A stretch of 64,000 nucleotides of DNA from Caryophanales bacterium (GTDB taxonomy: Bacteria > Bacillota > Bacilli > JARBTR01): the NCBI GenBank assembly GCA_029240105.1, contig JARBTR010000011.1:1-64000 (forward strand). Direction: 5' to 3'. Shown piece after piece: positions 37,744-39,404 of the stretch. The position numbers were made by a program, and so were the translations under genes. The notes under the pieces were generated by a model. The model worked only from the letters and a program-made list of their open reading frames with translations, did not search any database and had not been told where the DNA came from. Numbering within the stretch: the first letter of the stretch is position 1; every line of letters begins with the position of its first letter.

Positions 37744-37757
37744 ATCTCTAAAGAGAT
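37744..37757. promoter_or_regulatory. Inverted repeat upstream of the PlcR-like regulator gene
   Basis: ATCTCTaaAGAGAT just upstream of the start codon. Confidence 0.4.
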
Positions 37758-37764
37758 TTAGTGG

Positions 37765-38643
37765 GTGGTGAACGTAATGGATAGCGTATTCCTAGGAAGA
37801 GAAATTCGAAGGGTACGTAAAGAAATCGGTTTGACTCAATATGAGTTAGCGGACGGGATATGTGGTCAATCTGAAATTAGTAAGATTGAACGGGGGTCTG
37901 TATTCCCTACGATGGAGGTACTGGGCCCTATTTCTGACAGATTAAAAAAACCTATTTCTTATTGGTTTGAAGCTGCAATTAGTGATCAATATTATCATGT
38001 TGAAAAATTAAAAAAGGAAGTTCATCAGTTATTAAACGAGCATCAATATGAAGTAGCTTATTCTATATCAAATATGGAACTTGAAAAAAAGTATCTTTCA
38101 GGCGAGCATAAACAATTTTTTGATTGGGCCCTTGCTATCTCTGGATACAAAATCAACAAAATTTGGTTAACTACATGCATACAAAAAATTGAAGAATTAT
38201 TAAATCAAAAATTCTTTTATATGGACACAAATCAAACCATGTTCATTCGAAATTCATTAGCGAATCTATATAAGGATGCCGGTGAAATTAAAACTGCATT
38301 TACAGAATTTGAAAAAATTCTTTATACCAATAATTATATTAGCAACATAAAATTCTTTATTAGTGTAATGTTTAATTACGCAAATTCCTTACATACTGTT
38401 AAACAATTTGAAAAATCTTTAGAGATTGTTAATCGTGCTCTTAAAATCGCTAAGGAAACTAAGGAACTAGGTAATTTAGGAAATTTGTACTACCTAAAAG
38501 GGGAATGTTTGATCGATTTAAAAAAAGAGCATAATGAGATTTCTGAGTGTTTTGAAAAAGCTTTGTTCTTTTTTAAAGAGTTTGATCGCACTGATTATAT
38601 TGAAATTTTATTAACTTTGTATTCTCAATATATTAGAAAGTAA
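37765..38643 (+). CDS. HTH-XRE + TPR regulator, RNPP family, PlcR-like
   Basis: N-terminal HTH (GREIRRVRKEIGLTQYELADGICGQSEISKIERGSVFPTMEVL) and C-terminal TPR array (LYYLKGECLIDLKKEHNEISECFEKALFFFKEFDRTDYIE). Size and layout match PlcR. Confidence 0.85.
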   Translation: MVNVMDSVFLGREIRRVRKEIGLTQYELADGICGQSEISKIERGSVFPTMEVLGPISDRLKKPISYWFEAAISDQYYHVEKLKKEVHQLLNEHQYEVAYSISNMELEKKYLSGEHKQFFDWALAISGYKINKIWLTTCIQKIEELLNQKFFYMDTNQTMFIRNSLANLYKDAGEIKTAFTEFEKILYTNNYISNIKFFISVMFNYANSLHTVKQFEKSLEIVNRALKIAKETKELGNLGNLYYLKGECLIDLKKEHNEISECFEKALFFFKEFDRTDYIEILLTLYSQYIRK

Positions 38644-38700
38644 TCACCATAGAGGTTAATTTTACCCAATTTGAAATTCCTATAAAACTTAACATAAAAG

Positions 38701-38742
38701 ATAGACCTACATTTCCCCTTTTAGGGTTTCTCCGTAGGTCTA
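38701..38742. terminator. Hairpin between the convergent regulator and small-ORF genes
   Basis: ATAGACCTACatttcCCCTtttAGGGtttctccGTAGGTCTAT. Confidence 0.65.
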
Positions 38743-38768
38743 TTCTTATGAAGACTTATAATTTATAA

Positions 38769-38867
38769 TCATATCTTTTTTAAAGTAAAAATAAATAAGA
38801 ATAAGGCTAGAAAGAAGTATATACAGCTTACCAAACTTATTATTGACATCAATAAATCTACTGACAT
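38769..38867 (-). CDS. 32-aa single-TM micropeptide
   Basis: MSVDLLMSIISLVSCIYFFLALFLFIFTLKKI, preceded by GGAGAGGAG RBS; not in ORF track. Confidence 0.5.
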   Translation of the reverse strand: MSVDLLMSIISLVSCIYFFLALFLFIFTLKKI

Positions 38868-38934
38868 ATATTACTCCTCTCCAGAATTGATATTTAAAAA
38901 TTAAATATCAGTGATTTTTGTTTAGTTAACACGA

Positions 38935-39108
38935 TTAAATTCCAGTTTTGAACGAGTTCCCACCATAAATATCCGGTAGTGTCCCTGCTAATTTTGCTGA
39001 ATAAATATCCGGTAATGTTCCTGCCTTTTCATTATTGGCTAGACTCCCCAATCCCAAACCAGCTACAACTGCTAAAACGATCAATAGTGTAATTATTATT
39101 TTTTTCAT
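38935..39108 (-). CDS. 57-aa secreted peptide precursor with tandem AGTLPDIY repeats (putative PapR/NprX-like pheromone)
   Basis: MKKIIITLLIVLAVVAGLGLGSLANNEKAGTLPDIYSAKLAGTLPDIYGGNSFKTGI; Sec-type signal peptide, two perfect 8-aa repeats, next to PlcR-like regulator; GGGGGA RBS. Confidence 0.75.
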   Translation of the reverse strand: MKKIIITLLIVLAVVAGLGLGSLANNEKAGTLPDIYSAKLAGTLPDIYGGNSFKTGI

Positions 39109-39404
39109 AATTGATATCCCCCATTTTTTATAGAATCAGAATACCAAGATAATATGTCGAAAAAATATTCAATTTTGACTTTTTTGCTATATGGAATAAT
39201 TTTCTAATATAATTTGGGGATTTTTAACTGTAATTGTTGAATAAGCTGCAGATAATTCTCTATTCTTATTATTACTCTACATTCGGGTCAATCCCTTTAT
39301 AAAATAAAAATCTCCACACACTTGTGCAGAGATTTAGACTGGTTGGATTCTTGGCGCAATTTTATTTTTTACAATTTATTATAACAGTATTAAAATATAC
39401 GAAT

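Follow-up and report, generated by a model that had tools for sequence, protein, structure and literature searches.

The locus at positions 37777–39108 of the window, as we call the whole stretch of 64,000 nucleotides analyzed here, most probably (roughly 0.85) encodes a PlcR-type peptide quorum-sensing pair whose precursor carries the signal twice. The sequence-only reading that preceded this work had proposed that GTLPDIY or AGTLPDIY is the signal of a PlcR/PapR-like module, and this assignment appears well supported by the homology of the regulator to PlcR, the adjacency of the two genes, the leader of the precursor, an LP motif common to other receptor–peptide pairs, and the match between the peptide and the receptor pocket.

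The regulator gene (37777–38643, forward strand) codes for 288 aa with an N-terminal HTH and a C-terminal TPR peptide-binding domain. Its open frame also permits a GTG start at 37765, from which the gene had initially been counted. Since the ATG at 37777 (MDSVFLG...) is preceded by a G-rich stretch and agrees with the starts of relatives, it represents the better match; the RNPP-type assignment stood, and the start was corrected. Comparison with Pfam returned RNPP_C (2.2e-32) and HTH_3 (1.5e-9), and the B. cereus PlcR structures 2qfc, 3u3w and 4fsc matched the protein with an E value of 1.3e-47. Residues 7–284 aligned with residues 4–282 of PlcR at 34% identity (95 of 278 aligned residues) and, judged by its sequence, the regulator is a full-length PlcR homologue comprising both HTH and TPR domains. 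In a tree computed without other RRNPP subfamilies (Rap, NprR, Rgg), it fell into the PlcR-proper clan, which held 43 rows including B. cereus PlcR (support 98/95). Two contig searches for close relatives of the regulator yielded nothing useful, a further one with a more diverse alignment gave weak viral matches only, and a single-sequence AlphaFold model reached a pLDDT of 44.

Convergent to the regulator gene and separated from it by 291 nt lies the candidate pheromone precursor gene (38935–39108, reverse strand), which codes for 57 aa and reads MKKIIITLLIVLAVVAGLGLGSLANNEKAGTLPDIYSAKLAGTLPDIYGGNSFKTGI. The ORF was present as first described, with a Sec-type leader and two exact copies of AGTLPDIY. 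Judged by composition, the leader (residues 1–24, MKKIIITLLIVLAVVAGLGLGSLA; 39037–39108, reverse strand) begins with K-rich residues, which are followed by a hydrophobic core and a plausible cleavage site for signal peptidase (SLA↓NN), where the enzyme would cut after SLA. The sequence following the leader, AGTLPDIY-SAKL-AGTLPDIY-GGNSFKTGI, has a repeat period of 12 aa and contains the first copy at 39001–39024 and the second, followed by the tail GGNSFKTGI, at 38965–38988 (both reverse strand). A GGGGG motif at 39118–39122 on the same strand is the likely ribosome-binding site. Exact repeats of at least 5 aa were found in only two of the 393 window ORFs of 30–100 aa, and 8 aa were reached by the precursor ORF only; no further occurrence of the AGTLPDIY units was found in the organism's own 2.48-Mb genome. 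The two 24-nt units differed at two positions (GGA/GGG, TTA/CTA), and the spacers beside them were unlike each other. The codon differences had been taken to indicate selection on the peptide. Both were indeed synonymous, but since the peptide would survive two random changes unaltered with a chance of 6%, or of 13% if both were transitions, this pattern alone is weak evidence for selection and only suggestive.

The leader matched the Pfam family Bacillus_PapR (PF05968) with an E value of 0.24 and 12.2 bits, under the curated cut-off of 27, and its similarity to LPAM_1 was below the cut-off as well. The leader sequence MKKIIITLLIVLAVVA also resembled that of propeptides from the Planococcaceae genus g65 (MKKLSIILLIVLAVAL), a class of sequence that converges easily. 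A search for precursor homologues in 60 relatives of the class, a set without other genomes of the same order, returned noise only; LysS encoded in the window was up to 79% identical to LysS of other Bacilli. The resemblance to LPAM_1 and the failure to find a homologue of the whole precursor in this set would fit an unrelated secreted peptide, such as a bacteriocin or a protein akin to small lipoproteins, adjacent to the regulator gene by chance. This explanation is highly improbable, as the 57-aa ORF carries no lipobox cysteine and as independent lineages likewise show exactly repeated LP-motif peptides next to a PlcR homologue.

Between the regulator and precursor genes, we found a 32-aa hydrophobic ORF (38769–38867, reverse strand; MSVDLLMSIISLVSCIYFFLALFLFIFTLKKI). 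Both this position and an AGGAG roughly 8 nt upstream of the ATG start, a better ribosome site than that of the precursor, could be explained if this ORF were the true signal gene. Of all alternatives we considered, this is the least probable: the ORF shows neither a cleavable leader with a tail nor an LP motif, matched no family, and its composition looks like that of a small membrane or holin-like peptide. The same intergenic region contains a perfect 10-nt inverted repeat (ATAGACCTAC/GTAGGTCTAT, loop of 23 nt; 38701–38743), a possible terminator common to both convergent genes, which was absent from the output of the terminator scan. An Rfam scan gave no match.

At the precursor gene the promoter match was weak, and no PlcR box (TATGNAN4TNCATA) was detected with up to one mismatch in 200 nt or with up to two mismatches in 250 nt. 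Scanning the organism's own genome returned 10 sites versus 7 in the control, i.e., no enrichment, most of them inside genes. The operator not found near the precursor, the fully diverged spacers and the loss of about 40 aa from one paralogue of the regulator (see below), which would mean that the family decays in this genome, are consistent with a decaying precursor, in which the pheromone was doubled passively and one of the copies, or the system as a whole, is out of use. We consider such decay improbable, since both copies specify the same peptide with synonymous differences only and since the reading frame, leader and ribosome site of the precursor are intact.

Relatives of the regulator were sought in 400 genomes of the class and in 261 Planococcaceae genomes and were found in 60 and 39 of them, respectively. 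The flanks of about 160 regulator genes were searched for small leader-bearing ORFs, with leaders called by a simple composition rule that gives firm copy counts but may miss peptide genes. This yielded 51 receptor–peptide pairs with a clear register (GTLPDIY and 50 others), where the adjacent small ORF ends in or repeats xxLPxx[FYHN]; GTLPDIY fits this LP-centred heptapeptide with an aromatic residue, H or N at its end. The PapR-like LP motif recognized earlier is therefore real and common to dozens of other pairs, while the likeness of its PDI core to NprX gained no further support. The proposed search for homologues next to PlcR-like genes revealed no relative of the precursor itself in the genomes covered, but did reveal small LP-motif genes adjoining the regulators of relatives. 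Three layouts were observed. Convergent genes immediately downstream occurred as chromosomal arrays in Exiguobacterium, whereas L062 (Planococcus, TELPFEN), L065, L179 and an Exiguobacterium plasmid (L075) had one copy at the end of the precursor; divergent upstream genes occurred in many families with endings such as LPYQH, LPPCH and LPFIH; codirectional downstream genes were rare. The gene gap was at most 25 nt in most convergent relatives versus 291 nt at the window locus. Perfect PlcR boxes were located 73–81 nt before the start codon of the signal gene in L062, L065 and L179, and a box with one mismatch at −79 in L075.

Convergent tandem arrays of 2–9 identical copies directly after a PlcR-like gene were present in 18 of the 19 sampled Exiguobacterium genomes (L060, L061, L063, L064, L066, L068, L071, L073, L074, L076, L078, L081, L083, L084, L086, L090, L092 and L094), and in the 19th (L070) the locus was cut by a contig end. 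The peptide sequences varied from one genome to another, for instance KQDLPYEYVVKPLA in seven copies (L063), NNLPTEF in nine copies (L090) and LPPEH repeats (L092). L102 represented an imperfect third case of tandem copies with two LPPQH units. We did not find the Exiguobacterium arrays in the literature searched, which covered part of the journals. In the tree, the Exiguobacterium regulators formed a clade of their own (100/100), closer to B. cereus PlcR, and separate from the clade that united the window regulator with two paralogues from contig C12 of the same genome (100/98). Given this separation, the tandem copies probably arose independently here and in Exiguobacterium. Exiguobacterium genomes also contained clusters of 2–6 tandem PlcR-like genes (L079, L080, L087, L089, L097, L104 and others), for which no neighboring peptide gene was detectable by the leader composition rule.

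GTLPDIY is unlike PapR of B. cereus (ADLPFEF) at positions P2 (Thr), P5 (Asp) and P6 (Ile). Glu6 of PapR contacts K89, Q237 and Y275 of PlcR (PMC6568020). According to the alignment, the equivalent residues of the window regulator are H93, N240 and Y278, and the window pair thus departs from the combination of Glu at P6 with a K89/Q237/Y275 receptor. Glu6 was not universal among PlcR-like pairs, either. Across the 51 pairs, Q237 accompanied Glu at P6 in 20 of 23 cases and other P6 residues in 8 of 28 (p = 5e-5, uncorrected for kinship). The divergent propeptides of genus g65 (L167, L173, L174, L176, L177, L178, L180, L182, L183, L184 and L069) end in xDLPx[I/V/T]x and never carry Glu at P6. 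Here, Thr at P6 was paired with K237 in three of three cases and Ile or Val with Q237 in eight of eight (Fisher p = 0.006), and the Thr/Lys pairs occupied two separate places in the tree. This joint change of position 237 and P6 supports the assumption that position 237 is a specificity site and that the LP peptides are true ligands. Histidine at position 89 was considered as a marker of a non-Glu P6 as well; it was mostly confined to one clade and also occurred in two Glu6 pairs, so that it represents a hint only.

The comparison further bears on processing. In single-copy relatives, the seventh residue of the LP heptapeptide is usually also the last of the precursor, from which we infer that the mature C-terminus is Tyr here and that both copies need a cut after this residue. 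The 57-aa precursor would leave the cell by the Sec route and lose its leader to signal peptidase, whereupon extracellular proteases, cutting before the peptide and after Tyr, would release two identical molecules of GTLPDIY or AGTLPDIY per precursor. Re-import would be mediated by an oligopeptide permease; the genome contained five SBP_bac_5 oligopeptide-binding matches, two of them probably belonging to one gene. Finally, the peptide would bind to the TPR groove of the adjoining regulator and alter its action on promoters. Most simply, two copies would provide more signal per precursor. Several observations speak against this reading: no precursor homologue in the genomes searched, no LP-motif peptide found next to the closest relatives of the regulator, neither a PlcR box nor a strong promoter match at the precursor gene, the wide gap between the two genes, and the departures from B. 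cereus PapR at P2, P5 and P6.

The candidate pair shares with PlcR/PapR of the B. cereus group an HTH and TPR receptor of equal length, adjacent genes, and a Sec-leader precursor with an LP-centred signal and aromatic end. In contrast to the single C-terminal copy and codirectional order of B. cereus papR, the window precursor has two internal copies plus a tail and is convergent, carries Ile instead of Glu at P6 opposite a receptor in which two of the three residues that bind Glu are substituted, and lacks a PlcR box within 200–250 nt. PlcRa/PapRa of B. cereus likewise combines a PlcR paralogue with an internal, non-terminal signal (PapRa7, CSIPYEY) that needs C-terminal trimming and with the absence of a PlcR box, whereas papRa lies upstream of plcRa and holds a single copy (PMC3519770). 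The Exiguobacterium arrays are alike in the convergent leader-bearing precursor after a PlcR-like gene, the identical LP copies and the short tail; they differ in having Glu at P6, a repeat period of 14–15 aa in most cases versus 12 aa, a distance between the genes of −8 to 24 nt in the cases measured versus 291 nt, and a separate regulator clade. Several copies of the mature signal per propeptide are also known from repeat-bearing Rap/Phr, NprR and AimR propeptides (PMC11343458, PMC9765709), which belong to other receptor subfamilies; tandem copies of Phr undergo processing and have activity (PMC11343458), and for phage Phr the processing was shown to be the work of extracellular proteases. 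As PlcR-associated propeptides with tandem copies have already been published (PMC9765709), as an internal signal is known from PapRa (PMC3519770), and as convergent order is usual in Exiguobacterium and some Planococcaceae, the novelty initially attributed to the two copies, the internal signal and the gene order was too strong a claim. We tentatively propose, at somewhat less than even odds, that convergent multi-copy PapR-type genes form a recurrent, so far undescribed PlcR-like architecture, genus-wide in Exiguobacterium and of separate origin here, with the pocket re-tuned to an aliphatic residue instead of Glu. The locus adds a PlcR-type pair with a named candidate peptide for an isolated lineage of Bacilli, and the comparison offers a testable code relating peptide position 6 to receptor positions 89 and 237. 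The precursors of Exiguobacterium with 2–9 copies provide a natural series on the effect of pheromone copy number.

Three further RNPP_C proteins are encoded in the organism's own genome: two in tandem on C12 (45% and 38% identical to the window regulator) and a distant one on C9. The signal might serve mainly the two C12 paralogues, or all three regulators might share it, the adjacent regulator being one receptor of several. The common clade with the window regulator would suit this scenario, and no LP-motif peptide was found beside the C12 regulators, the closest relatives of the window regulator. We nevertheless regard it as rather unlikely, because their pockets differ from that of the window regulator (F or R at position 89, M or K at 237) and because a leader-like 50-aa ORF on C12, albeit devoid of an LP motif, could be the signal gene of a C12 regulator. 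This ORF is convergent to the second C12 paralogue and has a strong ribosome site. A perfect palindromic PlcR box (TATGCAATTTTGCATA) at −70 lies between an MFS efflux gene and the ORF, in a region (L057:7314–7536; C12:71313–71535) that is likely its promoter. The other paralogue (L057:5212–5961) lacks its roughly 40 aa between the HTH and TPR domains and is adjoined by the intact copy; it is probably decaying. The C9 regulator (L058:4541–5713), a distant RNPP protein of 327 aa, is accompanied by a divergent leader-bearing 50-aa ORF that contains AEDLPYLDGF, and the two possibly constitute a further signaling pair.
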